A DNA stretch of 64,000 bases, from NCBI RefSeq assembly GCF_010093815.1, contig NW_022985571.1, positions 27,286 through 91,285 of the forward strand, given 5' to 3'. Each line of letters begins with the position of its first letter. The stretch's first letter is position 1. The DNA comes from Pseudovirgaria hyperparasitica (taxonomy: Eukaryota; Ascomycota; Dothideomycetes; Acrospermales; Acrospermaceae). A model generated the notes under the pieces. It made no database searches and was not told the DNA's origin. It saw only the letters and a list, made by a program, of their open reading frames with translations. The translations under genes and the position numbers were made by a program. Positions 1 through 46,890 of the stretch are shown here, piece after piece.

Positions 1-21
1 ATTATTATTATTATTATTATA
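1..21. repeat. (ATT)n microsatellite, probable LINE/SINE 3' tail end
   Basis: About seven ATT units open the window. The same (ATT)n run ends the LINE at 12045 and the SINEs at 16611 and 42414, so this is most likely the tail of an element lying to the left. Only the composition is seen; the element itself is outside the window. Confidence 0.6.
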
Positions 22-87
22 TAGAAGTCTATATATATAATAGAGAATATCTACTTATATATATATAGAATAGAAATATCTTTAGTA

Positions 88-154
88 GATTTCTTTTTAT
101 ATTATAGCTTAGACTAGAGAAGATATAGTCTATAGAGTACTATTACTATTATAC
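88..154 (+). repeat. LINE/SINE 3'-tail fragment, heavily mutated
   Basis: The stretch reads like the common 3' tail of the LINE (11950-12045) and SINE (16500-16611): a T-rich run, then tagcttagactagaga, then an imperfect ATT-rich end. RIP-like changes (C to T, G to A) account for the differences. The rest of 22-295 is TA-rich DNA in which I see nothing else. Confidence 0.5.
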
Positions 155-295
155 TATACTTACTTTATAGTAGTTAGTATATATATTTAGTACTATACTA
201 AGATTATATAGTTATTTAGAAGAGTAGCTTAGTAGATACTATAACTTAGTTTTTTAATAATACTAAGTCTTAATATAAAACTATATCTATACTAT

Positions 296-2714: not shown

Positions 2715-3128
2715 GTGGCCTCCAGGAGAACTTTGGAGGAAGCACTGTGGATATACGGGCGACCACGATGTTTAAATACGGACCGGCTGTCTGAAGTATG
2801 TTTATGTACGATCTTGCTTGTTTTCCTAAAGCACTTCTTCCGCTTTTCCTACTTTTTCTAGAAGTATATATCATCGTGTCCGCCGACCATAGACAAAGTA
2901 GGTAGGTTCCTTAGATTTTTCGAACTCTAAATCTAACATGAACGGGCATAAGACCACTTTAGCTTTCCGAAAGCCATTTATAAGTAGTATGTAGAATAAT
3001 TAGATAGATACTTCTTTCTCTAGACTTTCTTTATAGTTCTAAAATAATTAATTTTAATCTTTATATCTAATTATTTACTACTTTATATTTACTATCTTAT
3101 TAAAATCGATACTTTATTAATAAAGCTT
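2715..3128. other. 3' flank of the SWIM gene and boundary with RIP-mutated DNA
   Basis: Normal-composition sequence continues to about 2960-2990 and can supply the 3' UTR. From there composition drops abruptly into TA-rich DNA (about 2990-3128) in which I recognise no element or gene. Confidence 0.5.
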
Positions 3129-17920: not shown

Positions 17921-18037
17921 AGAAAAGATATAGCGCTTCTAAGTACTTCTAAGTACTCCCTTAGTATTCTTTTATTCTATTATATTTATTAGATAGATCT
18001 ACTTACTATCTATTCTAATAGAACGGCTTTATATAAT

Positions 18038-18233
18038 TTATACTAAGTATTCTACTTATACTAAATATTCTAGTTATACTAGATATACTAGTTATACTAA
18101 ATATACTAGTTATACTAAATATACTAGTTATACTAAATATCCCGTTTATACTAAACGTCCCGTTTATACTAAATATACTAGTTATACTAAACGTACTATT
18201 TATACTAAATATATCGTTTATACTAATAGAATA
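18038..18233. repeat. 18-bp tandem repeat, about 11 units
   Basis: The unit is close to TTATACTAAATATACTAG. Unit length is a multiple of three and variants keep the length, which fits a former coding repeat (a six-residue unit rich in Tyr and Thr on the plus strand), although no surrounding gene is recognised. A few units carry CCCG or CGT in place of TACT. Confidence 0.8.
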
Positions 18234-19057
18234 ATTAGTACTAGTTATTTTCTTAATACTAATTAGCTTACTAGTACTACTTATTTACTATATACTAATA
18301 ACTCTTATAGAATAAATAGTATCTAGTATTTTACTTTCTCTATCTATTCTATCTACTCTATCTATCTTAATAGAAGCTTCTTTTCTAAAGTAATATCTTT
18401 ATCTAAAGTATCTCTATAACTCTATATATCTTATTATTCTAAACTATATCTTTAGTATATTTAATTATAGTCTTTAAATTTAATACTAGAAAGATAATAT
18501 ATAATAGAGAGTAGAGGTTTAAAATTAATTAGACTAGGAACTTAAATTAAATATTACTATTCTAAGCTCTCGCTAACTATATAGCTATAATAAAATATAA
18601 TAGATCTTTCTTTCTTCTATCTTGAGATAGTATTCTTTATCTATTATAAGATATTCTTATCTAGAACTACCTTTAATAACCTTTTCTTCTACTAGATACT
18701 TCCCTTTATATTTCTAGTTACTATTTTTATTCTCTCTTATTCTATCTATTTAGTCTTATAGTAGTCTATATAGTTCTCTAGCTATATACTAATATCTAAC
18801 TTCTCTTAAAAGTATATACTCTTTATATATAGATTAAAGATCTAACTTAAATATCTACTACTATCTAACTTTATTTTAATTTAAGTATTAGTTAGAGTAG
18901 ATAGACTACTAGTTAAGATAGCTATAATTAGAGATAATAAGTTAGTAATAGACTTATTTATACTATATATATATATACTACTAGGGTAGCCTATAGCTAG
19001 TAGACTATAAGTAGCCTTAAATTAAAGACTACTTTTCTAGAATTCTAAAGGTATTAG

Positions 19058-22494: not shown

Positions 22495-22676
22495 TTTAAA
22501 TTACTCTCTATATAGTACTATAGTTAAGATAGTCTAACTAGAACTAAGAAGATTAATATAATCTATTATAGAGATAAGTAATACTATATTAAATAATAGA
22601 GATTCTCTATAATTAGTATTAAATCTAGCTATTTCTAACTAAGAAGTAGAAATAATAGACTAAATTATAGAGCTTT

Positions 22677-22914
22677 TGTAAAGAGTAAAGACGTAGGATA
22701 GTAGTCTAACAGTTCATAGAGAGATATAGAAATGTATTTATAGAGTAATCTTACTCTTATACGAGGTTAATTCCTAACGAGTAGAAATCGGTTTATGCGG
22801 TCTACTTATATAGTGACCTCGCTTAACTTAGCTAACTTAACCTAGCTCTAGCCACTACGTGGCTACATGGATTAGAATAGTCTATATAGATCTATTATGG
22901 TTCCCGTCCTAATA
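22677..22914 (-). repeat. 3' LTR of Gypsy D
   Basis: 238 bp, starting TGTAAAG on the plus strand and matching 30547-30784 across its length. Confidence 0.9.
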
Positions 22915-23393
22915 ATATCCTTCTTCTTTTTATGCTTCGCCCTAAAGTACTTAAGTATATATAATCCTAAGTCTCTATAATCTATCGTATACCTATATAT
23001 CTATAACTAAGTTCCTATAACGTTATAACTATCCTTAATATAGGTGAACTCGAGATTCTAGTTTACTTTTACTAGTTTATACACGCGCTTATCCCTTACT
23101 TCGTAGCTACTACCTAGAATATATAATTACTACTTTAGTTAAGTATATATTTAGCTTCGCTCGCCTTTGATTTTATTCTCTAGTATATCCACCTCGCTCT
23201 TAAGGTAAGTCGTTAATTCATATACTATCTTCCCTAGTTTAGGTTTAGAAGGGTCTATAGTAGTCCATTCTTATTAGAACCGGTCCTATATAACCTATTT
23301 ATATTATTACGGTTACTAATTTAGCTTTATTAAACGCCGTTAAGGGTGGACGAATATTCCTTTCTTAGATCTCTAGCTAACGTATATATATAG

Positions 23394-24700
23394 ATATCTA
23401 ATACTAGTCCTATCTCTAAGCCTACCTCCTCCTCTCATAAGACTCGCTCTAAAGGCATCGCCTCCTCCCCGGCCACGCTAGCTAAGAAGCCTATCTATCG
23501 CGGTAGTATAAAGGCGCGCTCTAAGTCGGAGAAGAGAGTAGCTAGGGCTACTACTACTACTACCTCTACTACTAATATAGCTACTAGTTACTCTAATCTA
23601 GGTAATTCTAGTACTAAACTTATAGATAAAGTGGTCGTAGGTTCTTCTCTCGCTCTAAAGCGCACGCTATCTACTCTACCTCCTCTAGAGGATAAAGAAG
23701 ATCTTATTATAGACGATGATTACGAGCCCTCGCGCTTACCCATGCCGCCGCCTCGCCGCTCTTTCTTCCGGTCTAATATAGACTAATTTAGTTACTCTAG
23801 GTTCTTTTAGGACCTTAATATTCGCTCTAAACCCTAGCCTACTAATAATAAGGCCTAGGTCGCCGAGGATACTAAACGTAGTCACGGTTTACGCTATAGG
23901 AAAACGGCGAACTATAGTTCGATATACTATAAGTATATTAAGGGCTATACGGCCGGCTCTAAATATCTCTTTCGCTCTAACTCTAGTATTAGCTACTACT
24001 CTACTAACCGCGACGGGCCTATACGCTCTATCTTTACTCTACCTACCCGCTACCGCCGCTATACCATAACTAGTAAGACTTATCTATAGGTAAGTATAAT
24101 AGGCTATCTTAATCTAGTGTAATCTAAAGTGGTCCGCGCTAATATATTCTTAGGTTCCTATATATATATAAGATATATATAACGATCTTCGCGTCCGCGA
24201 GACCCTTAGAGGTCCTTATAGCTACCTACCTACTATATAGAGGGAGTTTAGGGAGTACTATAAGCTCTTCCTAGAGGTTATTAAAGTATAAGTTATAAGC
24301 ACGTTAATTATTTTTAACATCTATTGATTTTTCTAGCCGCCGCGAGATCCCTAGCGCCTAGACTATCTATTCTAGGGAGTCTATTCTAGCTATAGAGGCC
24401 GTAGAGAGAATTCGCTCTATTCCCCCCTATCTATCTCGCGCTACTAATAGATCTTATAAGAGGTCTACTATTTCTCCCTCTAAGTCGCCTTATAAGAGGA
24501 TATATATTCTCTTCTAGATTATTCTAGATCGTGTTAGCTAACTTTAGACCTAGTCGCTACGCTCTAGCGCTTAAGGCTCTTCCCTCTAGGCTCTAACGGA
24601 TCGAGTTATTATTTTAGAGGCTAAGGTCGTCGTCCTCCGCCGCTATATTATATAGTTAGAGAGGACTATACTAGAGGTTAGAACGGATAATAAGATAGAG
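23394..24700 (+). pseudogene. Gene-like block antisense to Gypsy D, between pol and 3' LTR
   Basis: On the plus strand, opposite to the element's own genes, a long coding-like reading begins near 23394. It is rich in Ser, Lys, Arg and Pro, with a low-complexity Thr run near 23550. Two intron-like intervals with GTAAGT- or GTATAA-type donors and CTAG/TTAG acceptors follow at roughly 24.1 and 24.3 kb, and coding character continues to about 24700. It may be an accessory gene of the family or a captured host sequence. I recognise no domain. It is decayed like the rest of the element and is treated here only as a fossil. Confidence 0.45.
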
Positions 24701-24702
24701 GA

Positions 24703-24817
24703 GTAGCTCTATGGTTCTAGCTCTATAGGTTTAGCTCTATGTATTAGCTCTATGGTCTAGCTCTATATATTAGCTCTATGCCTAGCTCTATATGTTAGCT
24801 CTATGCCTGGCTCTATA
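24703..24817. repeat. Short tandem repeat of tagctctatg units inside Gypsy D
   Basis: About nine imperfect 12-15-bp units, each with a TAGCTCTAT core, follow one another just past the antisense gene-like block. Confidence 0.75.
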
Positions 24818-27800
24818 TATTCTAGATCTACTATAGATGGTACGCGCCGGCTCTATTTGCCTAGCTTTTATCCGTTTTAGTCCTTTTTAGACCGTTTAGA
24901 TATCTATTAGCTAGTTTCTAGTAATTTAATTCTTAACTTAACGATATTATATGTGCGCTCGCTTAGCTTATAACTATCGGTTTCTATATTCTAATTTTCC
25001 TTAAGTTACCTAAGTATGGGTACCATATATAAATTAGTTTATCTCTATAAATTCTATTAGAGTACCCGAACTAGTAGCCTAGTAGTTATTAGTTTAGGTA
25101 CTCTAACCTTTTATATTTCGTGTTAAGAGTTTAATTCTATGGTAGGGTACCTTTTTTTAGGTTCTTAGTCCTATGTTTTTCTCGTATATAATAGTCTATA
25201 TTAGTCTATTCTAGACTCTTCTATGTTATTCTATTATAGTATGTCATATCGCGTTTCTAAAATAGTTATTTACGCTTTCTTCGCGTCTAGTAACTATGCG
25301 ACGCTTAAATTATAGGGCTACTATATAGAGTTTTCCTAGTACGCGTCTAGATTTCCTAGTTTAGTACTTCGTTCTCTACGGTATTCTTCTTCTTTTTATA
25401 ACGACCGCGACGTCGCTATACTTACATTAATAATACACTATTCTATATCTTTTACTTATACGTAGCTATTATAGAACTTAAGATATATACTACTAGTTCC
25501 TAGGTATCCTCGTCCTTAGTATAGTCCTTCTAACGGATTCTATATTTCTAAATACCGTCTTTATTAATCCTATATTCGATAATATAGTCTACTTCGAACA
25601 CGTCTAGTCTATCTTAGGGTATAATAGAGTATAACTATATATTCGTGCGGCTATACACGTTAGGTCGAAATCTTTTGAGTAGTAAGACGTGGAACACGTT
25701 ATAGATTCTTATATCGCTTCCTAAGTCGAGCTCGTAGACTCTTATACCGATACGACGTTTGATTCGGAAGGGACTAGCCATTTTATAATCGAGCTTCTTA
25801 TTTACTCGCGACGTTCGTATGTTACGGATGTTAAGAAGGACCTTGTCGCCCTCCTCGTACGTCTAATCCTTGGCTAATCTATTATAGTACTTCGTATATA
25901 AGTCGTTTACTTATTAGATTATAGCGCGATAGTTACGTGCGGTTTCGAAGATTTTAATTGCTAATTTCTAAGCGTGGACGTTTACGTCTGTTATTCGATT
26001 AAATTAGACCGTCTAAGGCTTAAAACCTATCCTTAGACTACGTCCGAGGTTCGCCTAGAAAGGTATAATATCTATCGTACTATAACGACTATTATTATAT
26101 ACGAACTCTACTATACTTAGTAGGGAGGCCTAGTCGTCCTACTCGAAATTATAGAATGCACGTAGGTAGGCCTCGAGCGTCTAGTTCTATCGCTCTATCT
26201 AGCTATCCGTCTAAGGATAAAATACTATAGACATGTTTCTATTTATACTTACTATTTCGTAGAATAATATCTAGAATTTGGACGTGAAGGTACTTCCTCG
26301 GTCTATAACGATCCTTTTTAGTATACTATGGACCTTAATAATCTCGTTCTAGAATACCTACGCTAGTTCTTTAGATGTAATCGTCTTCTATACCAGGATA
26401 TACCTAGATATCTTTATAAGTCTATCCACGATAATAAGAATAGAATTATAACTTATTCTAAGTATCTCGCTTAGAGGTAAGTTAACTATAAAGTCTATAG
26501 TAACGTCTTTCTATATAAAGAGGGGGGCTAAAAGAGGCTATAAATTCCTATATAGCTTATACCTAGGGGCCTTCGTTCTTTAATAAATCGGATAAGTAGC
26601 TATCTATTCTTTAACGTACTTAGATATATCTTTCTAAAAATAGTACTAACGAATTAAGCTTAGGGTACGTATATACCTAAAGTATTCTACTAGGTTAGCA
26701 TTATAGTATCGGCTAACTACGTTAAATTATGCGTTACCTATCGGTATATAATACTTTCTATTATAGTAAAGTAAGCCGTCTACAAAGGTCTACTTATAGT
26801 CTACTTTAGTCTATAATAATCTATCTTACTATATTTTATATAACTTTAAAACTATCGGGTCTATCTTCTATAGATCTATAATTAACTAGGTAAGGTTAAT
26901 TAGATATTCACGCTAGGTATTATCGCCCTTCCCAATAGCGCTAATAAACGGCCTACTAGGGACTTCGGTACCGCGTCTTTGGTTACCGGCTTTAGTCTTA
27001 GAGATTTAATTACCGGCATTAACGTTAGCATCTCGCTAATCGCCTAATAACTTAAAATCCAACCTCGTCCTTAAGAGTTAGGCCTATAGCTACTCTAGGA
27101 CCCTATAGCTACTATAATCCTAGGCGCCTTCTTTATAGTTAGGTCTTCTTAATATTCTATTAGCTAGGTTTATACTTCTAGGTTAATAGTAGATTATAAA
27201 GTAAAAGTTCGTAAGCTACTTAGCCTATTAGACCTATCGACGGTTTAAAACTATTATACTTATAAACCCCTTTAAGTTATAGTAATTAGTTAGTAACTTG
27301 ACGTTATATATAGTACCTTTAAGATAATATTACTACTATTTAAACGACTCTACTATTACTAGTAGCTCTTAGTTATAGATAGTATATCTAGTCTTAATAT
27401 CGACCATTTTACGTAAGAAGAACGTAACTAGATACCATTAGACCTTTTTAGACTTAGTTAGTCTAGGCTAGGAGAGAATATCTAAGATTATAAATCCTAA
27501 CGCGTCGGTTTTAACGCGGATAGGTTTAGTTAGGTCGAAGTATACTAGTAATAGGGTAGTTATAAATACCTCTTTGATTTTCTCGAAGGAGGCCCTTTCG
27601 CCTTCCGATAATTCTATAGACTATGATTTAATATTACGCTATTTCTATCTACCGCGGACCGTAATAGACGAATCTATAGTAGTAGTACGCGCGTTAAGCG
27701 GTACTACTAGCCGGGAAAAATGCTTAACGAATTTTCGGTAGTAATTAGCGAATCTAATAAAGACACGTATATCTTGAACTAATTTTAGTTTAGGCTAGTC

Positions 27801-30546
27801 CACGATAGTAGTAACTCTATCTCTTTCTATGGTTATACCTTAATTAGTAATAATAAAGCTAAGGAAGTTAACGTGGTCCTAGTGGAACTCGTATTTAGAT
27901 AGCTTAATATATAGCTTGTGTTTTTCTAGCCTATCTAGGACTACGCGTACGTGCTAGATGTATTCTTCTTTATTATTAGAGAAGATAAGGATGTTATCGA
28001 GGTATACGATGCACGTTATATCGAGTAGGCCTACTAGCGCGTTATTAATATACGCTTAGAAGGTTCCTAGCGCGTTAGTTAGTCTAAAAGGGACTACTAT
28101 ATACTCGAAGTATCTATAACGGGTCCTAAACGCCGTTTTCTACTTATCGCCCTTCTTAATACGTAGGCGGTAGTAGGCGTTATATAGATCGAGCTTAGTA
28201 AAGATCGTTGCGCGCCCTAGTCTATTAATAGACTCGGAGATAAGAGGTAGTAGGTAATAATTCTTTCGCGTAATATTATTTAGACTATAGTAGTTAATAC
28301 ATAGACGGAGACTCCTATCCTTCTTCTTTATAAATAGAATTAGAGCTCTAGCTAGGGATATACTAGACCTAATCTATCCTCGCGTAAGGTTCTTTTCAAT
28401 ATATTCTCGGAGGACCTATAGCTCGGGTTCTAATAGAGGGTAGATGGGTCCGTATAGGGGTTATTAACCGTCTTCGAGGTTAATAGTAAGGTCGATAGGT
28501 TAGTATTAAGGTAATTCGGACGAGTCAATCGCTAACGCGATATATTAGTATATTTTATACTAATATAGTAGGTTTTCATCTACTTTAATACTAAGCTCTC
28601 TATTTTAAGTAAGTAAGAGGACGTAGATAGCGGAGATTACCTTTTCGTAGTCCTTCTAGAATTATTCGTCGTCGACTAGCTATACTAGGTTCCATTATAG
28701 TAGGTATATACGCTAGCTAGCTGTTTTCTAGATAAAGTCTAGTTTCGGGTTATGTTTTTCGAGCTATGGTATACTAAGGATTATATTAAAGGGACTATCT
28801 ACCACGATAAAGGTTAAGTAGTAGGGTTTCCACTTCCCCCCGCTATTCTAGATACTATATTTAATGGTATAGATACCCTATAATTTAATAGGACTATTAA
28901 TACTATAGAAGGTAGCATCTATTAGTACTTAAATATCGACGTTAAGTTCTTATACTCGTTAAGTTAATATAACGTTAGTAGCTAAACCGCTATTAAGTAT
29001 TATGGTCTAATGTTATCCACGAGGGACCTCGATAGGCCTAGCCTATAGTTTAATATACTAGTTAGCTAGTTATCCCTCTATTTTAGTTACGCCTATAAGT
29101 TATAAGGGTTCCTTATAGATAGTTAGTTTTTTATATCGTATACCGGGTAGTTAGGCGCGATATATCCTAGCTACTAGTACTTATAGTATGTAACTAACTT
29201 AGTATCTATATTAGTATTCGGTAGTTTCCCTAAGCGGCACTCGGGTACTATATAGTCTATCCTACCATAGGTATAGTAGGTAACTTTAGGTTATTTATAC
29301 GAGTCGTTTCTCGCGTCTCGATATATCGACTAGTAGAAAGATCCGCGTTACGGGCCTTATCTTCTTAAGTTCATAGAGTGGTAGCGTCTACGAGGTGTTC
29401 CGCGTAATCTATTACTAAACCGGTCCTCTTTAGATGATTTCGTATTAGATTGGATTAATAGGGATAGTCATGCGTCTATATAACGTTAGTTATTCATTAT
29501 ACGCTAATGTCGTTCTACGAGATTCGCGAGTGCCTAAAGATTAGTAGAGATAGACGTTATAAGGTTAATACGTTTCTTTACGCTCGGGTTAAGGGACCTT
29601 TTAAAGTCGTCGTATTATTAAACCATATAATCTTTCTCGGCTTCTCTCTAAAGAGGTCGGAGGTATTTAAGGAGTTATAACGGGGATTATCTCTCTTACT
29701 ATTAAGTCTTAAAGATATAGCTCTAAGTCTATTTACGTTACTCGGCTCTATCGCCGAAGTATTAAAGAAGGAATTTAGTAAACGTGTCCTAGTTATACGC
29801 ATCCTTAGGGTGTTTAATTCGATATACCATCTAACGTTTAGATAGCGTTAGGTCTAGGTAGTTCTATATAAACCTAATCTTATTACTATCGTTTATAAAT
29901 AGGTAGAAGAATCGGCTATACTAGTAAGTCTATTCGTAAAAGCTCCTTCTAGTTTTACTATTAAAGTAAGGTGGTTTCTTAGGCCGAGGTAACTAGGATA
30001 GTAATAGACTTAGTTAGACTATTTCGGCTTAAGTTAGTCTATATTAGTATAGGTTAGTTACTACTAGTACTAAAGCGCGTAGTGCGGCTTCGAGTCTAGC
30101 GGTTTATCCTTATACTTCGTCGAGTTCACGAAGTTACTACTTAAGCTAAGCCTAACGCTACCTCTCCGTGTATAGCTTAGTATATATATTATTATAAGGC
30201 GTGGTTAACGTTAGTTAGTTCTAACGAATTAATTCATTAACGTTAATAGGGTCTAGTCTTATAGTAAGGATAGGTCTAGTATAGTGTAAACTAGACCGCG
30301 ATGGAGTATAATAGACTCCTTCCTTATTATCTAGGTAATCTTCTACGGTTATACGGAATACCGTACTAGTTATTAGTACGATAGCCTATAGAGTATACCT
30401 ATTGGTAGAGGTAGTTATAGGGAGACTATTCTCTTCGTTTAGATTTAGAGAGAGTCTCTTATATAAGGTAGTACCACGGGTATTATAGCGCGTAGTAGGA
30501 GCTATCTCTATAAGCTACCGTCGTGCTATATAGAGAGGAATTAAAA

Positions 30547-30784
30547 TATAAAGAGTAAAGACGTAGGATAGTAGTCTAATAGTTTATAGAGAGATATAGG
30601 CATATATTTATAGAGTAATCTTACTCTTATACGAGGTTGATTCCTAACGAGTAGGAATCGGTTTATACGGTCCACTTATATAGTAACCTCGCTTAACTTA
30701 GCTAACTTAACCTAGCTCTGGCCACTACGTGGCTACATAGATTAGAATGGTCCATATAGGTCTATTATAGTTCCCGTCCTAACA
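30547..30784 (-). repeat. 5' LTR of Gypsy D
   Basis: 238 bp, ending CCTAACA on the plus strand (TGTTAGG on the element's strand), and followed by the GCTTT duplication and the continuation of Gypsy B. Confidence 0.9.
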
Positions 30785-32379
30785 GCTTTCTAATAAAGAA
30801 ATAGTAGATATACTAAGTAACTTCTAATAATATAAAGTTAGATAATAAGTTATAACGGAGCTATATAAGGTATTATAATAAACTATTACTAAACTATAGA
30901 AGTATATTACTAATTAAGTCTAGAAGATTTAGATTCTTAAAGAATAGACTAAATATATAAAACTCCTTATAAAGAGATAAGAACTTAAGAAGTCTCTTAA
31001 AGAACTATACTAAATAATAGTAGATAAATAACTTTCTATACTAATTTAGATAGAATTAGTTTACCTACTACTAGAGTTATAATAATCTACTATAATTCTA
31101 GCTACTTCATTACTAACTTACTCTATTCTATCTCTAGATATACTAAAATCTAAAGATCTAACTATATTTATAGAGAAGAACTAAAAGAAGTAGAAAGACT
31201 AGAAGAGAAACTATAAAAAGTACTTCCTTAATAACCCTCTACTCTTTTCTACTAAAGTATAATATATTTTATTTAGAGAATAATACCTAGACTTATAATT
31301 CTATAATTAATAGAATAGATAGAAAGAAGTATAGCTACTATCTATAATAACCTAGGAATATTTAGCTATATTTATACTAAATACCCTTAGAATAGATAGA
31401 GAATATAAAAGAAAGATACTATTAGAGTTAAGAAGTATAGTATAATAACTAAACTAGATATCTACTTAACTACTATAATATCTATAAAACCTATAGAATA
31501 ATATCTCTACGCTATAGAAAAATATTTATATATTCTAGTTTTATAAAGTACTACTTCTATTAATCTATAAAAGACTAGAAATAGTACTATTAAGTTTTAA
31601 CTATCTATATAAACTAGAGAAGAAAGCTAATAAATACTACTATATTCTTAAGAAATATAGCTCTCTAGATAAAACTAATAAACTCTATATAGATTAGAAA
31701 TAAGGTTAATTAAATATATTTAATTAAGAGTAATCTTACTATAATTAGTACTAGAAGAGTATAAATTAGAGTAGAAACGTATTAAGAGAATACTAAAATA
31801 ATTAAGATAGTACTTCTTAATATAGAAAAGAATAAAATATAGACTTAAATATAATATCTATTATAAAATAGTAGGATTATAGTATACTTTATTACTATAA
31901 GTATAGAGAAATAGAATATATTTTATCTAACTATAAGAATCTAAAAAAAGAATAGACTAGTATATAAGATCTAACTATATTCTTAGCTAAATTATATATA
32001 CTTAGAAGAAGCTATAGTATCTTCTAGTAAGTAAAGATCTAATATTACTAAAAATATTATTACCTATAGTAAATAGTAATAAAACTATATAGACTCTTAT
32101 AGATACTAGTATAGAAGATAACTATATTTTATTAATTCTCGTAAAGAAGTATAGATTATTATATAACCTTAGTAAAGTTAGCCGAACTATTATAGTTAAT
32201 AAATATAAAGTTAGAACTTTAGATAAAGCTATAATAAATTATAAAGTTTATAACTTAAATATAATAAAATAGTAGATATCTAATAAATTTATTATAGCTA
32301 ATATTAGCTAATAGAATATAATTCTAGGGATACCTTAGCTTAAACGCCTAAACTCTATCCTTGATTTTTAGAAGGAGAT

Positions 32380-32607
32380 TGTAAGAATAGGGTTATTAGA
32401 TAGTAGTATAGTTAGATAGAATAATGGGGTGTATTCTATCATAGAACGAATTACTACCGAACCTTTTTAGTAGGAATCTAAGAGTATATATATAAAGGGA
32501 CGCCGATCTATCTAGCACGTGACTGTTTACCGCCCTTCACGTTACCTCCTAACTCTATTAGCTAAGGTACATATAGATTGGGTCCTACCTAAGACTAAGT
32601 TCTAATA
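32380..32607 (-). repeat. 3' LTR of Gypsy C
   Basis: 228 bp. It starts TGTAAG on the plus strand and ends in the RIP-altered counterpart of CTAACA. Confidence 0.9.
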
Positions 32608-33389
32608 ATTATCCCTTCCCTCTAGAAAGCTACTCTTAGCGACCTAGATCGTTATCTATCTCTATATCCCTATTCTAAGTCTCGTAAGACCTTAGTCGTT
32701 CTCTATGCTTCGTCTTAGATACTTACTAATATTCACCGATCTAAGATTTATATAAGTATTTTCCTAATAAACTAGATTTTATCTATCTTAACTTCTTACA
32801 TAGGTAAGATTACCTAATTAGGCCTAGCGTATCACGTAATATGATTAGGTAAGCCCGGGTACTACCTATATTAAAATCTTTTCTTAGAAATATTCCTTTC
32901 TTTAAAAAACTTCTTAACTCTTTATAGAGTTTTTTAGATTATTAGATATATTACCCAATCCTTATAGACATAGATTTATATAGATTTACTATAATTTAGT
33001 GCGATTTACGTAATTTACTAATTTTCGTACCGTCCTTAGCTAGTAATAATATAATTCGTAATAATCTATATAAATTAATAATAATCTTAATATAGTTTCC
33101 CGAAATCTCGACGCTCTAAAGTAATTAGTACGGAAATAGGCGCCTTCGAATAATCCCTATCTTGTATACGTTACCGATATGTTAAAAGCTATTAATCTAC
33201 TCTAACCTAGGCCGGGCTCTAATAATCTAGCTATATATTATTATAGTTATTACTTTCCGTTATATATTACTTATAGCGGTACTAAATCTATAATATATAG
33301 TACTTATATAACTAAGAAGCGTTATTACTTATAGGTATTTAAGTAAGTTTAAAGAACTTTACGTAGATTTACTTATATTAGTATAGATT

Positions 33390-34140
33390 ACTACTAGGCC
33401 TCTAGTAACCCCTACTAATAAGAAGCATAGTACTACCAATCACAACGCCTTAGAGAAGGCTTTCTACGAGCTATATATCTAAGGTAAGGGTTACGCCTAG
33501 GAGTACGATTCTAATAAGATCCGTAAGGATTTATCGGAATCTACTATAGCTATTATTACCGCGATTACTAGGTAATATCGTTTTTCTTAAATTATTATAG
33601 ATTCTTACTAATATATATTAATCTCTATAATAGTGCTAAAATCTCTACTACTTTGGACTTCTTTCTATATACTAGCGATATTAGAATTTCTAGAAAAGGT
33701 TCTAGTAAAAAGGCTAAGGTTCCTTCCTCGCGCGTGCTAAAGAGCCGTAAATTTAGGAAAGATAGCTCTAATCTAGAAGTTTCTATACTAAAGGTATGTG
33801 GTTCTATACCGATCGTTAAATCTTTTCGCTAATTTATGTAATTCTTAGCGTGCCTACGCCGGTCCGTCCCTCTCCGTCCCGGGTCCCGCCGCTCTATAGG
33901 TTTCTATAGAGGAGTTTATAGCTATAAGACGCGCTATATAGAATTTATAGCGTTAGAACGAAAGGCTAGAGACTTATATTATAAAGCTCTATACTATGCT
34001 AAATAAGAACTAGCGGAAGGAATTAGATATAACTATCGCGGTAATTAGTACTTCTACTCCTACTCTAACTTAATTAGTTTAGATCTATATAGATTAGTAC
34101 TAATATATCTCTTTTATCTAGCGTTTTTAGTTTTTCGGTT
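33390..34140 (+). pseudogene. Gene-like block antisense to Gypsy C, between pol and 3' LTR
   Basis: As in element D, the plus strand opposite to pol reads as coding. A first open stretch runs to about 33570. After it comes an intron-like interval of about 60 bp with a TACTAAT branch-like sequence and a TAG acceptor. A second open stretch follows, then a GTATGT-type donor near 33794 with an acceptor near 33848, and a third open stretch to about 34140. The product would be short and basic, and I recognise no domain. The sequence does not obviously resemble the block in D. Copy B should carry a more decayed version around 45400-46600. Confidence 0.42.
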
Positions 34141-37100
34141 TTAATTTTAAAGCGATCTTACTTCTTCTAGATAGATTAGTGCGAGTTTATATAGATCTAT
34201 ATAGATCTTTATATTTTCTTTTAGCTTTCTTAATTTTATCTTTCTTTAATAATAACTTCTTTAATCTCTTTAGTGATCTATACCGATCTATACCGATTAG
34301 CACCGATTTTCGATGTCCATTTCTCTTAGTAAATCATTTTTCTAAGTCTCTTTTTTAGTTAAATTTTTTAAAGTTCTAAGTTTAAACTTTCTAAGGAAGT
34401 TCCTTAATTCCTTAGAATATTTTAAAGATCTATATCTCTTTTACCTTCTTCCTTTTAGGCGGCCGTCCTCGGCGCTAAACTATACTAAAAAACGTTGAAT
34501 CGCCGTACTTTAGTATAATTCTCTACGATTCCGCGGCTTCCTTTGCTAATCGCTACTTATATACTAATATCGCTGCTTTACTAATATTTATTATAGGTTT
34601 CTAAGTATCTTTATTAGAATTATATCCTTTCTAATGAATTTTATATAGCCACGTGCTATCTTTAGCGCGTTACTAGCTAAGTATCTACTTAACTTCGTAG
34701 ATATCTATACCTTCTTACGTAACTACTTTATATAGTATCTATTCGGAACGATCCGGTAATAATAAGGCATGAAATAGCTCGAGAAGCGTAATATAGAATA
34801 TATTATATATCTTTAACGTAGGAGGGAGTTACAACTCGTACGCCTGGTTATTAATTATACGAGTAATCTTGTATAGACCTATTATTATATAGTTAAGCTT
34901 CTTCTTTGGCCTAATACTATAAATATTCTTACTATTTAGTAAAACTTTATCCCTAACATTAAAGATTATGGGTTTTCTACCCTTATTATAGTATGATTTA
35001 CTATAATTCGTAGTATCTTATAGTAACTTTATAACGCTTCTTTACGTTTAGAATAGTTCTATAGTAATTTCTATTACTTTAACGTTAGGTTATTCTACTT
35101 TAAACTAAGTCCCTAAGAACTACGTATTATAGTTCTAACCGAAGTTTACTTCGAACGGACTTACGTAGGTTAACGCATGTCGGCTATTATTATACGCGAA
35201 TTCCGCGATATAGACTAACCTTATCTAGTTATCCTACTTATAGTTATAATATATACGTAAATACGCCTCGACTATCTAATTCTACCACTCTATCTATCTA
35301 TCTATTTATAGGTGGAACGTAGTACTAAGTTTCCGCTTAATTCCTAGCGTATAGTAGAAATCCTTCTAAAATTTAGACGTTATCTACGGACCTCTATCCG
35401 AAACTATACCGTTTAGTATACTATAGAGCCGGACTACGTCACGGAGTAGTATATCTATAAGATCTAGTACTTAGATCGTCTTCCTTATAGGGATATAGTA
35501 TAATATCTTTATAAATCTATCTAGAACTACGAGTAAACTATCATAAATATACCTAGAATACTTACTTAGGGGTAGATCTATAATGAAATCCATCGATAAT
35601 TCCTTCTATACCTCCTTTAGTATAGGTAATGGCCTTAATTTACTATATAGTAAGTGTCTATATACTTTCGTATACTGGTAAACGTTATACGTTTTTACGT
35701 AGTCTTTTATATATTTATAAAGACCCGGCTAGTTATACGTCCTTCGGATTAAATCGACCGTCCTTATAACGCTAAAGTACCCTACTAACGCGTAATCGTA
35801 CTATTCCCTTAAAATATTAATTCGTAAGCCGCCTTCCGGCATATAGAGTCGGCCTTAGAAGTAGATCGCGTCTAATCGTCGTTCCTACCTTAATAACCAT
35901 AGCGGATCTATAGCACTTCCTTTTATACTTATGACTTTCTTTACTAATATATTAGAATTCTAGGTAGATTTAATTAAGTCTTTGAGGGTTTTCTTAGTTT
36001 CTTAGATGTTTATTTAAATTACTTAATACCCGCTCTAATTCCCGTGGAGAATCGCCGAAAGTGTCCTAGCTTCTAGTATTCTATTAGATAACTAGTCTTA
36101 TAGTATCTAAAGTATAGTATAGTCTAACTTGCACTAACTATCTGCGTTATTCTATGACGATTTCTTATAATCTTTACGCCGCGATAGAGGATTAGCTTTA
36201 TTCTCTCTTCTAGCTTTATATAAGATTTTAAAGTTAAATATTAATATCTACTAAGCCTAATATACTTATTGGCGATTAAGGACCTTGGTCGATATAAAGT
36301 AACGTAGATTTACGTAATCCGATAATAATTCGATCTAATATATAGAGTCTTCTAAATAATATCGCTATTACTTAAAACTCTTAATAATTATAAGTAGTTT
36401 CTAGTCGTGCGTGTTATAACGCGTCTCTATATCCGCCATTTTATAAGAAAAGAAAGCGACCGGGTACTATTATACCTTATCTTTCGTATCTTTATACGGT
36501 TAACTAATAATTCTAGTAATTACGAATTCTAACGCGTTAGTTTCGACCTAAATATACTTCTTAGAATCGAAATACCTAAGAATCGGCGTAGTTATAAAGT
36601 AATTCTTTAACGATTGGAACGTATCTCGCGCTTCCGGCGTTAACTATATCTCGACCGACTTAGCTTTACGCTATACTCGCCTACCTATAGGGATTTTACC
36701 GCTATTCTCTATAAGTTTATTAAGCGACGCCGTAATTCGTAAGAAGTCTATAATAAATTTACGATAATAGTTTACGAAACCTATGAATATTCTAATTTAA
36801 CGTATAGTAGTAGGTTCTAGCCATTCCATGATGGTCTTTATACGCTCCGGCTCTATTTTTAGGCCGCCATATATCATAATAAAGCCAAGAAACCCAACTT
36901 CTTATTAGTAAAACTCGCATTTAGATAATTTTATATAGAGTTTATACTACCTTAGACGATTTAGTACCGATTTCACGTGTTCTTTATAATCCTTTATACT
37001 ATCGGAGTAAATTAGTATATTATCGAGATAAACTACGTAAATTATATTAAGTAATCCTACGAGTATAGTATTAATATATCCTTAAAACGCTCCTAGCGTA

Positions 37101-39535
37101 TTTATTAGCCTGAATGGCATAATAGTATACTTAAAATAACTATATCTAGTCCGAAATGCGGTTTTCTACTTATCTCCGTAACGAATTCGAAGTTAGTAAT
37201 ATATATCTTATAAATCTAGCTTCGTAAAGTACTTTACCTTCGTTAATTAGTCTAAAGATTTACTAACTAGCGGTAATAGGTAACGATTCTTCTTAGTCAC
37301 CGTATTTAGTGCCTGATAGTCAACGTATAGATATAAACTTCTATCTTTCTTCTTTATAAAGAGAATAGGTACGCCGGCCGATAACGTACTATAACGTATC
37401 TAGTCTCTTTCGAGGTATTCTTTAATATATTTACAAAGAACTTCGAGTTCTAGTCTCGAAAGTAGGTAAAGTAGGCTATAAGGGACGTCTACTCCCTCTT
37501 CGAGCTCGATCTTTAGCTTATATAGCCCGTGATCGGGGAGAAGTAATATATCTCCTACCGAAAACATATCCGTATACTACGAATATACGTCGGGTAGCGT
37601 GTCTTCGCCCTAATTATTACTATCGTCCTTATCTTTATTAATAATTAATAAGGACGTAAGATAGATTAGTAATAATCGGGTCCGCACGGCGAGGTTCCAT
37701 GCCTCCTTACTAATAGTTATAACTTACTAGTATAATTTACCACGGTGTCGTCGGAACATTAATGTCTCCTTCTAAAAATCGAGGATAGGGTTTAGGCGTC
37801 TAAGCTAAGGTATCCCTAGAATTATATTCTATTAGCTAATATTAGCCACGATAAATTTATTAGATATCTACTATTTTATTATCTTTAAGTTATAAACTTC
37901 GTAATTTATTATAGCTTTACCTAAAGTTCTAACTTTATGTCCATTAACTATAATAGTTTAGCTAACTTTACCGAGATCGTACGATAATCTACACTCCTTT
38001 ATAAGAATCGACGAAATATAGTTATCTTCTATACTAGTATCCACGAGGGCCTATATAGTTTTATTACTATTTACTATGGGTAACGATACTTTTAGTAATA
38101 TTAGGTCTTTACTCGCTAGAAGGCGCTACGGCTCCTCCTAAGTATATATAATTTAGCTAAGGATATAGTTAGATCTCATGTACTAGCCTATTCTTTTTTT
38201 AGATTCTTATAGTTAGGTAAAATATATTCTATTTCTCTATACTTATAGTAATGAAGTACGCTATAATCCTACTATTTTATAATAGGCGTTATATTTAAGC
38301 CTATGCCTTATCCTTTTCCGCGTTAAGAAGCACCGCCTCGATTATTTTAGTGTCCTCTTAACGCGTTTCTACCCTGATTTACGCTCTTCTAGCGCTAATC
38401 GCGGTAAGGTTACTCTTAATCGAACGTATTTAATCGACCTCGTTTCTAACCCGTGTAGGGTTCGTCGGTTTTACCTAGAGAGCCACGTTCCTTAAGGATG
38501 CGGTAGTATTTATTAGCTTTCTTCTCTAATTTATATAGATAGTTAAAACTTAATAATACTATTCCTAGTCTTTCGCGGATTAACGGAAGTAGTACTTCGC
38601 GAAACTAGAATATACGAATATTTTTCTATAGCGTAGGGATATTATTCTATAGGTTTTAGAGATATTATAGTAGTTAAGTAGATGTCTAGTTCGGTCGTTA
38701 TACCACGCTTCTTAACTTAGATAGTGCCTTTCTTTCACGTTCTCTATCCGTTCCGAGGGTGTTTAGTATAAATATAGCTAAATGTTCCTAGGTTATCGTA
38801 GATAGTAGCTATACTTCCTTCTATCTATCCTATTAATTATAGGATTATAAGCCTAGATATCGTTCTCCAAACGAAATGCGTTATACTTTAGTAGAAAAGA
38901 GTAGAGGGTTATCGAGGAAGTACTTTTCGTAGTCTCTCTTCTAGTCTTTCTACTTCTTTTAGTTCTTCCCTATAAATATAGTCGGGTCTTTAGATTTCGG
39001 TATACCTAGGGAAGGAGTAGGGTAAATCGGTAACGAAGCGGCCGGGTATACGGTAGATTATTATAACTCTAATGGTAGGTAAACTAATTCCGCCTGAATT
39101 AGTATAGGAAGTCGTCTACCTACTATCGTTCGGCGTAGTTCTTTAAGAGACTCCTTAAGTTCTTATCTCTTTATAAGGAGTTTCGCGCATTCTACCTATT
39201 CTTTAAGGGTTTAAATCTCTCGAGCCTAATTCGCGACGTATTCCTAAAGTTCGGCGATAGTTTATTATAATACCTTACGTGGCTCTACCACGACTTATTA
39301 TCCGGCTTTATATTATTAGAAGTTACTCGGCGTATCTACCATTTCTTCGTCTAAAAGCTCCGTGATTTAGTCTAATATTTCCACTTCTCGGTTAGAAACG
39401 GCCGGGATTAATACTAATTATAGAGGATCCCTATTATTTAATATAGTATTACTTATCCCTATAGTGGATCGTGTCGACCTTCTCGGTTCTAGTTAGACTA
39501 TCTTAACTATAGTACTATATAGGGAGTAATTCGAA

Positions 39536-39763
39536 TATAAGAATAGGGTTATTAGATAGTAGTATAGTTAGATAGAATAATAGGGTGTATTCTATTATAG
39601 AACGAATTACTACCAAACCTTTTCGGTAGGAATCCGAGAGTATATACATAAAGGGACGCCGATCTATCTAGTACGTGACTATTTACCGCCCTTCACGTCA
39701 CCTTCTAACCCTGTTAGCTAAGGTATATGTAGGTTGGGTCCTACCTAAGGCTAAGTCCTAACA
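39536..39763 (-). repeat. 5' LTR of Gypsy C
   Basis: 228 bp, ending CCTAACA on the plus strand and followed by GAGAT and the continuation of copy B. Confidence 0.9.
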
Positions 39764-40248: not shown

Positions 40249-41233
40249 TTATCTATTACTACTAGTTAGTAAATCTTTAGACTAATTAATAAAGGTAAAG
40301 TACTTTATAAAGCTAGATTTATAAGATATATATTACTAGCTTTAAATTTATTATAGAGATAAGTAGAAAACTATATTTCGGACTAGATATAGTTACTTTA
40401 AGTATACTATTATACTATTTAGACTAATAAATATACTAGAAGCGTTTTAAGAATATATTAATACTATACTTATAGAATTGGCCAGGTGGCGTAGTGGTAG
40501 TGTGCTACGTTACTAGAAGCGTTTATTATCTAACGTCGTGGGTTCGAATCCTATAACGGCCACCTTTTTATACACTAGTTTTCGCACGCTCTATTAAAAA
40601 GTGTGCGGGGCTAAGCGAGCACATAACGTGAAGGTTACCGTTACATGACTACTTAGTCCTAAGCGACCATTAGGTAATGTGAAAATAACTATACCATCAT
40701 TATATAATAAGAATTACCTAATATAGCTACCTACTAAGCTACCTTAAGTAGTAGAGCGACGCCTAGAGTAGCTAGACCCATAACTAGCTTAGCTCGAATC
40801 ATAGAATTTTCACTATATACTAGGGCCTTATCTACCCTAATCCGGCTTAGCTCGTGCTTACTCCGGCTCGGTAACCACGAAATAGACGGTAATACGTAAT
40901 TTAGTATCCCGCCTACCTATAGATGATTATATAGCCCCGAAGAATAATTTCCGAATTCGGCCTAGCTAGGGTTAGTGCTAAGGCATGGACCTATTAGATA
41001 TATACCCCCTCCGGCATTAGTCATCTTAATTAATGACTACTACCTAGCGTAAAGCTATATTCCCATGGATAGGAAAAAACACGGTAACACAGGAATAAAA
41101 GATTAGGCCTAGCCTAGCGACCTATCTAATCATAAGAAAGGTAATACCTACTATAGTTGGTTAGGGCGTTATTAAGAGCCGGTACTAATATAGTAATAAA
41201 AAGCCTAATATAAGGATAAGAAGTAAGTTTATC
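40249..41233. repeat. Left copy of a 985-bp exact repeat flanking the assembly gap
   Basis: The last 985 bp before the run of N recur as the first 985 bp after it (41244-42228), at a constant offset of 995. No difference was seen at any point compared. Both copies include Gypsy B sequence, the same SINE junction and the SINE body, as expected for an unmerged contig overlap. Confidence 0.9.
40480..40564 (+). other. tRNA-like head of the SINE (first of two assembled copies)
   Basis: The head contains a Pol III B box GGTTCGAATCC at 40541-40551 and an A-box-like TGGCGTAGTGG. A T arm (GTGGG/CCTAT) and a D arm can be drawn, but the anticodon stem closes on a six-base loop and only the outer four acceptor pairs (GGCC/GGCC) form, so it is not a working tRNA. 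A T5 run follows directly at 40565-40569. The same unit appears at 41475-41559. Confidence 0.7.
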
Positions 41234-41243
41234 NNNNNNNNNN
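41234..41243. other. Assembly gap (10 N)
   Basis: Ten N join two contigs. The flanks are a 985-bp exact direct repeat, so the gap probably has no missing sequence and the two ends should overlap. Confidence 0.97.
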
Positions 41244-42228
41244 TTATCTATTACTACTAGTTAGTAAATCTTTAGACTAATTAATAAAGGTAAAGTACTT
41301 TATAAAGCTAGATTTATAAGATATATATTACTAGCTTTAAATTTATTATAGAGATAAGTAGAAAACTATATTTCGGACTAGATATAGTTACTTTAAGTAT
41401 ACTATTATACTATTTAGACTAATAAATATACTAGAAGCGTTTTAAGAATATATTAATACTATACTTATAGAATTGGCCAGGTGGCGTAGTGGTAGTGTGC
41501 TACGTTACTAGAAGCGTTTATTATCTAACGTCGTGGGTTCGAATCCTATAACGGCCACCTTTTTATACACTAGTTTTCGCACGCTCTATTAAAAAGTGTG
41601 CGGGGCTAAGCGAGCACATAACGTGAAGGTTACCGTTACATGACTACTTAGTCCTAAGCGACCATTAGGTAATGTGAAAATAACTATACCATCATTATAT
41701 AATAAGAATTACCTAATATAGCTACCTACTAAGCTACCTTAAGTAGTAGAGCGACGCCTAGAGTAGCTAGACCCATAACTAGCTTAGCTCGAATCATAGA
41801 ATTTTCACTATATACTAGGGCCTTATCTACCCTAATCCGGCTTAGCTCGTGCTTACTCCGGCTCGGTAACCACGAAATAGACGGTAATACGTAATTTAGT
41901 ATCCCGCCTACCTATAGATGATTATATAGCCCCGAAGAATAATTTCCGAATTCGGCCTAGCTAGGGTTAGTGCTAAGGCATGGACCTATTAGATATATAC
42001 CCCCTCCGGCATTAGTCATCTTAATTAATGACTACTACCTAGCGTAAAGCTATATTCCCATGGATAGGAAAAAACACGGTAACACAGGAATAAAAGATTA
42101 GGCCTAGCCTAGCGACCTATCTAATCATAAGAAAGGTAATACCTACTATAGTTGGTTAGGGCGTTATTAAGAGCCGGTACTAATATAGTAATAAAAAGCC
42201 TAATATAAGGATAAGAAGTAAGTTTATC
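41244..42228. repeat. Right copy of the 985-bp exact repeat flanking the gap
   Basis: Identical to 40249-41233 at all points compared. After 42228 the SINE continues uniquely to its tail. Confidence 0.9.
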
Positions 42229-45161
42229 ACCTAATGGGATTCAAGGACTTAGACTAGGCTAGGTTAGGTTAGTAATAGGGTCTAGTTAGGGAGCCAATCA
42301 CAGGAGGTTTTCTTATATACATAGCAGCCAATACTAGAGGAGGCCTAAGGCTGTGGAGCATATATATGGCTATATATATAGTTCTTCCTAGTTAAACACT
42401 AATATTATTATTATTATACTTATAGAATTACTTAATATAATCTATATAGTTTATCTTAATAATATACTAATTTACTCTAATAATATATAGAATTAAAAAG
42501 AATATATAAAATTAATACTAAATTAGCTTAGATAGTATAAGCTCTATATAAAGTTATCTAAATATAAGTTCTACTAATAAGAAGTTAGATTTCTTAGCTT
42601 TATTATAATATATAGTAGTCTAAAAATAGAGCTAGAGCGTATAAAGACTATTATAGAATAGCTAGAATCTACTATTATATATTAAATTATAATATTTATA
42701 GATTTTATAAACTATTATTATAAATTTATTATAGACTTCTTATAAATTATAGTACTACTTAATAAACTTACTAAGAATAGTAGTAAAATCTCTATAGATA
42801 GGCGAGTATAGTATAAAGCTAAGTTAGTTAAAATATAGTTAATACTAGAAGTATAAGATATATTCTAATTATTAAAGAATTACTTTATAACTATACTAAT
42901 TCTTAGGTATTTTAATTCTAAGAAGTATATTTAGGTTATGACTAATATATTAGAATTTATAATTACTAGAATTATTAGTTAACCATATAAAGATATAAAA
43001 GATAAGATATAATAGTATCTAGTTACCTTCTTTTTCTATAAAATAGTAGATATAGAGACGTGTTATAATATATATAACTAGAAACTACTTATAATTATTA
43101 AGAGTTTTAAGTAATAGTAATATTATTTAGATAGCTCTATATATTAGATTAAATTATTATTAGATTATATAAATCTTTATTACTTTATATTAACTAAGGT
43201 TCTTAATTACTAATAAGTATATTAGACTAAGTAGATATTAATATTTAACTTTAAAATCTTATATAAAGCTAGAAGAGAGAATAAAGCTAATTCTCTATTA
43301 TAGTATAAAGATTATAAGAAATTATTATAGAATAATATAGATAGTTAGTATAATCTAGACTATACTATACTATAGATACTATAAGACTAGTTATCTAATA
43401 GAATACTAGAAACTAGAATACTTTTAGTAATTCTCTATAGAAATTAGAGTAGATATTAAGTAATCTAAATAAATATCTAAGAAACTAAGAAAGCCCTTAA
43501 AGACTTAATTAAATCTATCTAGAATTCTAATATGTTAGTAAAGAAAGTTATAAGTATAAAAGGAAGCGCTATAGATTCGCTATAGTTATTAAGATAGAAA
43601 TAATAATTAGATATAATCTACTTCTAAGACTAACTCTATATACTAGAGGGCGGCTTATAAATTAATATTTTAAGGGAATAGTATAATTATATATTAGTAG
43701 AATACTTTAGTATTATAAGAATAGTTAATTTAATCTAAAGAATATATAACTAGCTAGGTCTTTATAAATATATAAAGGACTATATAAAAATATATAATAT
43801 TTATAAGTATATAAAAGTATATAGATACTTACTATATAGTAAATTAAGACTATTACCTATACTAAAGAAGATATAAAAGAAATTATTAATAGACTTTATT
43901 ATAGATCTATCTCTAAGTAAGTATTTTAGATATATTTATAATAGTTTACTTATAGTTCTAGATAGATCTATAAAGATATTATACTATATCTCTATAAGAG
44001 AGATAATCTAAGTACTAGATCTTATAGATGTACTACTCTATAATATAGTTTAGCTCTATAGTATACTAAATAGTATAGTTTTAGATAGAGGTCTCTAGAT
44101 AATATCTAAATTTTAGAAGAATTTCTACTATATACTAGGAATTAAGTAGAAACTTAGTACTATATTCTATCTATAAATAGATAGATAGATAGAGTAGTAG
44201 AATTAGATAGTTAAGGTATATTTATATATATATTATAACTATAAGTAGAATAACTAGATAAGGTTAGTCTATATTATAGAATTTATATATAATAATAGCT
44301 ATTATATATTAACCTATATAAGTCCATTTAAAGTAACCTTTAGTTAGAACTATAATATATAGTTTTTATAAACTTAGTTTAAAGTAGAATAATCTAATAT
44401 TAAAGTAATAGAAATTACTATAGAACTATTCTAAATATAAAGAAGTATTATAAAGTTACTATAAGATACTATAGATTATAGTAAATTATACTATAATAAG
44501 AGTAGAAAACCTATAATCTTTAATATTAGAGATAAAGTTTTACTAAATAGTAAGAATATTTATAGTATTAGACTAAAGAAAAAGCTTAACTATATAATAA
44601 TAGATCTATATAAGATTACTTATATAATTAATAACTAGGTATATAAGTTAAAACTCCCTTCTATATTAAAGATATATAATATATTCTATATTATACTTCT
44701 TAAGCTATTTTATATCTTATTATTACTAGATTATTCTAAATAGATACTATATAAAGTAGTTATATAAGAAGATATAGATATCTATAAAGTTAAGTAGATA
44801 CTTAGCTAATAATATACTAAAGATAGTATATAGCTATATAAAATTTATTAGAAAGAATATAATTCTAATAAAGATACTTAGAAACCTATAATAAATATTA
44901 GTAAAGTAGTAATATTAGTATATAAGTAGTAATTAGTAAAGAAAGCTATAGAATTATAGAGAATTATACTAAAGTATAGTAATTTAATATTTTTTAGTAT
45001 AGTTTAGTACTAAGAATAGCTATCTAAAAGAAAGAAGATAAAAGAGATATAGATCTTTAAAATATTCTAAGGAATTAAGAAACTTCCTTAGAAAGTTTAA
45101 ACTTAGAACTTCCTTAGAAAGTTCGAACTTAGAACTCCCTTAGAAAGTTTAAACTTAGAAC

Positions 45162-45301
45162 TGTTAGGCACGTGCCTACCAGTTAATTATACATGTGTGC
45201 AGTAGTCGTATATAAGTAGTGTACTCCACCCTTAAAGTAGTAGCTTTAAGATTCGGTCCTTTTAGTATAGTTGGTTGGTGCATGGAGCCCGCCTCCTTAC
45301 A
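45162..45301 (+). mobile_element. 140-bp solo LTR, little affected by RIP
   Basis: It begins TGTTAGGCACGTGCC and ends CCTTACA, flanked by the 5-bp duplication AGAAC (45157-45161 and 45302-45306). It contains a TATA-like gtatataagtag. No internal region or second LTR is present, so it is a solo LTR or a very short terminal-repeat element of a family different from A-F. Its normal composition contrasts with the saturated Gypsy B around it. Orientation is taken from the TATA-like motif. Confidence 0.85.
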
Positions 45302-46648
45302 AGAACTTTAAAAAAAGTTAAAAATAATTTACTAAGAGTAATAGACATTAAAAATCATTATTAATTAGTATAGATTAGTATAGATTACTAAAGAGTTTAA
45401 AGAAGTTATTTTTAAAGAAAGATAAAATTAAGAAAACTAAAAGAAAATATAAAGATCTATATAGATCTATATAAATCTATATTAATCTATCTAGAAGAAG
45501 TAAGATTACTTTAAAATTAAAACTAAAAACTAAAAATACTAGATAAAAGAAATATATTAGTACTAATTAGTATAGATCTAAACTAATTAAGTTAGAGTAG
45601 ATATAGAATAGCTAATTAATACTATAATTATATCTAAGTCTTTCTACTAGTTCTTATTTAGTATAGAATAGAGCTTTATAATATAGGTCTCTAGTCTTTT
45701 ATTCTAATACTATAAACCCTATATAATATATCTTATAGCTATAAACTTCTCTATAGAAATCTATAGAGTAGTAGAAACTAGAGTAGAGAGAGACGGACTA
45801 GTATAGATATACTAAGAGTTATATAAATTAGTAAAAAGATTTAATAATTAGTATAGAACTATATACCTTTAGTATAGAAACCTCTAGATTAGAGCTATTT
45901 TTACTAACTTTATAGCTCTTTAGTATATATAAGAATAGAATCTTAGTCTTTTCTCTAGAATTATTCTTAGGGATTTTAATATTACTAGTATATAGAAAAA
46001 AGTCTAAATTAATTAAGGTCTTAGTACTATTATATAGATTAATATATATTAGTAAAGATTAGTAATAATTTAAGAAAAATAATATTACCTAGTAATTATA
46101 GTAATTATAGCTATAGTATACTTAGCTAGATTAGTATAGATCTTATTAGAATTATACTTCTAGCTATAATATATACTATATTTATATAATTTATAGAAGG
46201 TCTCTTCTAAAGAATTCTAATTATTAGTACTATACTTCTTATTAGTAGTATTTAGGCGTTATCTAATATTAATCTATATAAATATAAGTAAATTAGTATA
46301 AAGCTTCTTAAACTTACTTAAATACCTATAAATAATAACGCTTCTTAGTTATATAAGTACTATAAGTTATAGATTTAGTATCCCTATATATATATACTAA
46401 AGAAAAATAATAACTATAGTAATATATACTTAGATTATTAGAGTCTAGTGAAGGTTAAGGTAGATTAATAGCTTTTAATATATTATTAATATATATAAGA
46501 TAGAGATTATATAAAGACGTCTATTTCTATACTAATTACTTCTAAGTATTAAGATTTTAGAAAACTATATTATAATTATTACTAATTTATATAGATTCTT
46601 ATAGATTATTATTATTATTAGCTAAAAATACTAAAAAAATTAGTAAGC

Positions 46649-46890
46649 TATTAGGGCTAACACTAGAATAGACTTAACTAGACTACTACGGTCTAGTACG
46701 GTCCCGTAAGAGATAGAATTAGAATTAAGTTAGCTAGATTAAGCGAGACTACTATATAAGTAGACTATATATACTTAATTTCTACTCTTTAGAAATTAAC
46801 CTTATTATAAGAGTAGACTACCCTTTTAAATATATTTCTAAATCCTTCTATAATCTATTAGACTACTATTCTACGTCTATAATTCTTATA
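46649..46890 (+). repeat. 5' LTR of Gypsy E
   Basis: 242 bp, matching the D LTRs over the full length apart from RIP changes and small length differences. Confidence 0.8.

Follow-up and report, generated by a model that had tools for sequence, protein, structure and literature searches.

Antisense Genes in LTR Retrotransposons

An antisense gene, brtn, was reportedly described by Zhao et al. in 2011 in the Boty-like retrotransposons of Botrytis cinerea. In the excerpt of a review that treats such genes, brtn, which is present in Sclerotinia too, is grouped with plant antisense open reading frames (aORFs) located between pol and the 3′ LTR, for which nuclear regulatory roles or control by antisense RNA are discussed (PMC7264820). 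Excerpts of other papers mention a Boty-like element in which brtn accompanies gag, RT, IN, and CHROMO (PMC4227169) and a Monilinia transcript resembling truncated Pol and BRTN (PMC5987419). A sequence-only reading of the locus studied here knew of no such gene described for a fungal Gypsy family; these excerpts show that one had been. No other fungal case was named in the literature searched at title level, and this is not proof of absence.

The locus is a minus-strand LTR retrotransposon of Pseudovirgaria hyperparasitica (element D). Like Boty as described in these excerpts, it belongs to a fungal Gypsy family, has a gag-pol region that includes RT and weaker matches to IN and CHROMO, and carries a putative antisense gene in the slot that separates pol from the 3′ LTR; the likeness is one of position and description. 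With the plant aORFs (maize Grande gene23, rice RIRE2, Silene Retand, and PvRetro13), as far as their excerpted descriptions extend, its block shares the probable antisense orientation, the position between pol and the 3′ LTR, and the lack of clear homologs. However, these belong to plant elements, and the antisense pieces of D fall below the cut-off for all Pfam families, the Transposase_28 of Retand included. A promoter of its own and a nuclear product are described for Grande gene23, as a plant feature. The antisense block of D and a block in a second, related family, C, are candidate new instances of a kind already known in fungi.

A Mutated Chromovirus-Like Element

The window, which is the whole 64,000-nt stretch of DNA analysed, contains the following features of element D.

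22677..30784, minus strand: element D, chromovirus-like Ty3/Gypsy, recognized by LTR pair, target duplication, and pol domains
22677..22914, minus strand: 3′ LTR (left end), whose exact inner end we infer
22915..23393, plus strand: spacer that would hold the promoter of the antisense gene
23394..24089, plus strand: antisense exon 1, 232 codons, 5 stops, without an intact start codon
24090..24153, plus strand: putative intron 1, 64 nt, GTAAGT ... CTAAT ... TTAG, from the strict signal scan
24154..24285, plus strand: antisense exon 2, 44 codons, 2 stops
24286..24361, plus strand: putative intron 2, with a weak donor, missed by the strict scan and read from the sequence
24362..24702, plus strand: antisense exon 3, 113 codons, heptad-like C terminus
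25308..30199, minus strand (element sense): gag-pol region with stops, recognized by Pfam pol domains
30547..30784, minus strand: 5′ LTR (right end), recognized by the LTR pair

A 5-bp target duplication, GCTTT, was read from the flanks at 22672-22676 and 30785-30789, and the LTRs are 93% identical, or 99% when transitions are ignored. In pol, RVT_1 (9.7e-17), RT_RNaseH (9.2e-6), and SH3_Tf2-1 (1.8e-14) were above the Pfam cut-off, and Integrase_H2C2 (0.041) and rve (0.26) were below it. Just after SH3_Tf2-1, at the end of pol, lies a Chromo match (E-value 0.0025) whose 18.1 bits are under the cut-off of 25.1. Thus, D has the LTR pair and target duplication of a Ty3/Gypsy chromovirus and the order RT, RNase H, and then H2C2/rve, the last two weak and below cut-off. 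No Gag model of Pfam matched its gag piece. Beside the left LTR, the minus strand has a purine tract (about 22918-22931); this tract and the minus-strand gag-pol together identify the left LTR as the 3′ LTR, which places the antisense block between pol and the 3′ LTR. The position proposed for interval 23394-24700 in the sequence-only reading is therefore borne out by LTRs, Pfam domains, and flanks.

Element D sits within a copy of family C. The only other copy of D in the window (46639-48035) is partial, comprises the 5′ LTR and the gag side, and stops short of the antisense interval, which is thus single copy within the window. This partial copy ends where another repeat family starts, at 48038. 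Directly after the last antisense exon of D, a tandem repeat of 13- and 25-bp units with a TAGCTCTATG core occupies 24704-24835.

In every 2-kb stretch from position 4001 on, (CA+TG)/(AC+GT) is 0.01-0.34 and TA/AT is 1.47-1.81, compared with 1.10 and 0.94, respectively, at 1-2000. In filamentous ascomycetes, such dinucleotide skew marks DNA that has undergone repeat-induced point mutation (RIP). The DNA of the D interval is heavily RIP-like mutated, and this copy of D is dead.

Open Frames and Intron-Like Signals Antisense to gag-pol

The antisense (plus) strand contains a stop-free stretch of 130 codons (23394-23783), which ranks second among 12,911 open stretches in the window outside positions 1-3000. 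When the block was dinucleotide-shuffled, 0 of 1000 shuffles gave a stretch this long; for the whole spacer, 1 of 1000 did. Similarly, 23334-24029 on the same strand has the second fewest stops among the 232-codon windows outside 1-3000. The block thus exists as noted, and its openness exceeds what chance gives. Period-3 power was reached by 10 of 1000 shuffles for the block and by 127 of 1000 for the whole spacer. The strong coding character previously claimed for this strand is borne out in the openness of the long stretch, whereas periodicity over the whole spacer is weak and all modelled exons contain stops. In favor of a gene, the three-exon model has fewer stops (14 in 389 codons) than the known gag-pol (115 in 1420).

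A fungal-type set of GTAAGT...CTAAT...TAG coincides with the switch of open frame on the plus strand. The intron-like signals noted earlier are thus present in the strict set at 24090-24153, although shuffling also yields at least one strict set, in 61 of 500 cases for the block and in 152 of 500 for the D spacer; taken alone, the intron signal is weak. The acceptor of putative intron 2 was picked for frame fit and is uncertain, another TAG ending at 24336. A transition-blind purine register selected the predicted frame in all three D exons and in three of four C exons. It backs the frame and not the strand, because both strands give the same pattern and openness was the criterion by which the exons were selected.

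Exon 1 differs from pol in composition (A at third position 0.14 vs 0.30; GC 0.44 vs 0.35), and its product would be rich in Ser, Thr, Lys, and Arg. A CTA-type triplet run occupies 23548-23586. AlphaFold prediction of exon 1 alone gave a mean pLDDT of 42.5, too poor for a fold search. In the spacer at 22913-23390, no coding-like excess was found; its longest open stretch (40 codons) was matched by 767 of 1000 shuffles.

Coding Strand

Several weak signals suggest that the plus strand is probably the coding strand of the block, and two composition tests oppose this. In the same exon 1 triplets, 5 of 232 are stops on the plus strand and 10 of 232 on the minus strand, and the strict scan found one intron set on the plus strand and none on the minus strand. 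G at codon position 1 minus G at position 2 (G1-G2) is -0.078 for the minus reading of exon 1, under all 40 known-sense windows (minimum 0.043), these being overlapping gag-pol windows of 232 codons in just 27 of which sense scored above antisense. The plus reading (0.004) is likewise under this minimum, although the measure weighs more heavily against the minus reading, and exon 2 alone favors minus (0.068 against 0.114).

On the other hand, a stop-based path model gave 5.4 for minus (1 of 200 shuffles) and 0.9 for plus (59 of 200); this model is unspecific, an AT-rich region having scored 0 and 1 of 200 as well. The pol-trained codon strand score is also negative for D exons 1-3 (-0.027, -0.046, and -0.069). 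Pol-trained codon log-odds gave no clear signal in the block, and a generic codon model, correct in three of five known regions, gave no decision on the strand. Codon models and the path model alike discriminate poorly in such mutated DNA. The earlier view that the element's own strand lacks strong coding character and intron-like signals accordingly agrees with its excess of stops and lack of a strict intron, but not with the path model and the pol-trained score.

Searches for Homologs

The sequence-only reading had proposed a profile search of the separate open stretches; run with Pfam on the antisense pieces of both D and C, it gave nothing above cut-off. Matches to D exon 3 (Lzipper-MIP1) and to a C piece (YabA and MYO10_CC) each had an E-value of 0.13, below cut-off. 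For D exon 1, no match was found among PDB sequences (best E-value 0.54) or in a collection of bacterial and archaeal genome contigs. D exon 1, exon 3, and one C exon likewise had no match in a viral contig collection. These misses carry little weight, because the RT piece of D matched nothing there either, and since the scanned contig collections are viral, bacterial, and archaeal, they say little on capture from a host. When the D spacer was compared with the window in a transition-blind manner, its tandem repeat alone scored above the 106 bits of a reversed decoy.

A Second Antisense Block in Family C

Family C contains a block with a comparable layout, comprising the following features.

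32382-39761, pol on the minus strand: family C copy c1
32606..34380, plus strand: spacer between pol and 3′ LTR of c1, with the antisense exons within
33200-33334, 33387-33571, 33634-33793, and 33849-34090, plus strand: antisense exons of c1 (approximate)
45310..46667, minus strand: matching block in family C copy c3

The blocks of C and D share the same slot and orientation, several exons, a heptad-like last exon, and low A at third position (0.20 in C), but their sequences have no detectable similarity. For the two products, the transition-blind alignment score was reached by 18 of 60 shuffles and the plain alignment score by 362 of 500. In contrast, D and C pol scored 570.8 in the same transition-blind test, where 20 shuffles reached at most 53.3. 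The heptad-like ends of both products hint at oligomerization.

In c1, the frame changes coincide with putative introns of 52, 62, and 55 nt, with one clear GTATGT donor and looser others. The strict scan of the c1 spacer found two intron signals on the plus strand (7 of 500 shuffles) and none on the minus strand; one of the two donors, at 33343, differs from the model donor and lies inside the first intron of the model. In c3, it found none on the plus strand and one on the minus strand, which is its antisense strand (79 of 500 shuffles). Openness of the c1 spacer alone is modest (34 of 1000 shuffles); the c3 part gave 3 of 1000. The codon strand score was positive on the plus strand for three of four C exons. 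A BED-finger-like residue spacing was considered in exon 33200-33334 and rejected, zero Pfam families having matched the C piece 33035-33334.

Comparison of c1 with c3 over 33053-34135 (against 45530-46615) revealed 49 transversions in 1073 aligned bases (4.6%), compared with 5 in 223 in the LTR and 6 in 1301 in pol. The block thus collects transversions about 10 times faster than pol and about twice as fast as the LTR. Its gaps are two compensated pairs only, with no net frame change, whereas 32965-33051, just outside the block, has six gaps in 87 bases. By codon position, the transversions number 8, 13, and 18 (third-position excess, P = 0.066; third vs first, P = 0.038), and exon 33387-33571 (3, 8, and 6) is without third-position excess. 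Exons contain 39 in about 722 bases and introns 4 in 170. The pattern is compatible with either a fast-changing or a weakly constrained gene.

Copy c3 also contains a 161-bp insertion (45161-45321), absent in c1, which is probably later than the RIP-like mutation because it mostly retains CA/TG. Rfam gave no match in 44950-45450, around this insertion.

Alternative Explanations

The coding sequence might instead lie on the element's own minus strand, as a third sense ORF, env-like or other, with the openness of the plus strand as a by-product, since the codon register is nearly strand-symmetric. Just 10 stops in the 232 minus-strand triplets of exon 1 and the preference of the path model and the pol-trained score are in its favor. 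Nevertheless, we consider it unlikely: its exon 1 product would have 17.7% Arg, G1-G2 is as low as -0.078, no strict intron signal is found on that strand, and in C both the codon score (three of four exons) and the bias of transversions to third over first positions favor the plus strand. Capture of a host gene by an ancestor of D, in antisense and with its introns, and its carriage since then as cargo would account for the intron-like signal and for an exon 1 so unlike pol in third-position A and GC. We regard this as quite improbable, given that no Pfam or PDB match was found and that the low-A block in the same slot of C would require two captures or one old one. Moreover, intron-bearing capture from spliced RNA would be unexpected unless the gene was transcribed antisense. 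Of the accessory gene and the captured host gene proposed earlier, the accessory gene is best supported, its layout being repeated in family C; capture found no support from Pfam, PDB, or the viral, bacterial, and archaeal collection scans, which say little on it.

There is a very small chance that an unrelated transposon is nested in D, as might be suggested by inverted arms at 23383-23406 and 24145-24168 (24 nt, 79% complementary) that bracket exon 1 and intron 1. However, the arms are TA-rich, the region contains six such pairs of 17-24 nt in all (a count without shuffle control), no transposase matched, and family C has its block in the same slot. Even less probable is the absence of any gene, the block being a less AT-rich, low-complexity stretch with Ser/Thr-codon-like composition, open by chance and possibly giving a non-coding antisense RNA. 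Such a reading agrees with the nonsignificant periodicity over the whole spacer and the CTA-type run, but it conflicts with openness that none of 1000 block shuffles reached, the frame switch at the intron signal, the purine register in all three exons, and the parallel in C.

A Putative Spliced Accessory Gene

Taking these results together, D probably carried a spliced protein gene of ~390 codons antisense to gag-pol, in the slot between pol and the 3′ LTR where the known aORFs lie. The gene would contain one or two spliceosomal introns, and its transcription would start either at a dedicated promoter within the 480 bases that adjoin the 3′ LTR or in the LTR itself. Splicing would remove any introns on the genomic-RNA strand before reverse transcription, whereas those on the antisense strand, being opposite to the genomic RNA and hence unspliced there, would persist. 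By analogy with the plant antisense ORFs, a class in which reviewers include brtn, the product would most likely be a nuclear or regulatory accessory protein. If this is true, antisense accessory genes of fungal Gypsy elements reach beyond Boty, and introns are retained on the sole strand where a retroelement can retain them.

A broader and rather doubtful hypothesis is that the chromoviruses of this fungus regularly carry spliced accessory genes in antisense, the antisense strand permitting their introns. Rapid turnover might have erased the likeness between the two families, as if these genes and host silencing were engaged in an arms race; the C block changes faster than pol and LTR, and faster in exons than in introns, with its frame kept. 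With two families side by side, conserved helpers and fast-changing counter-defence could be distinguished.

Other Features of the Window

The DNA at 300-2900, with a GC of 0.50, is unmutated and resembles a host gene region. It holds two open stretches, one of 274 codons and the other of 317, as well as a 9-bp minisatellite near 1230-1370. In Pfam, the 274-codon stretch had weak matches, all below cut-off, and the 317-codon stretch had none. In very AT-rich DNA at 18001-18306 lies a direct-repeat array with 9-base spacing. Finally, two 985-bp copies (40249-42228), 100% identical amid diverged DNA, flank a run of 10 Ns (41234-41243), and this duplicate is probably a scaffolding artefact.
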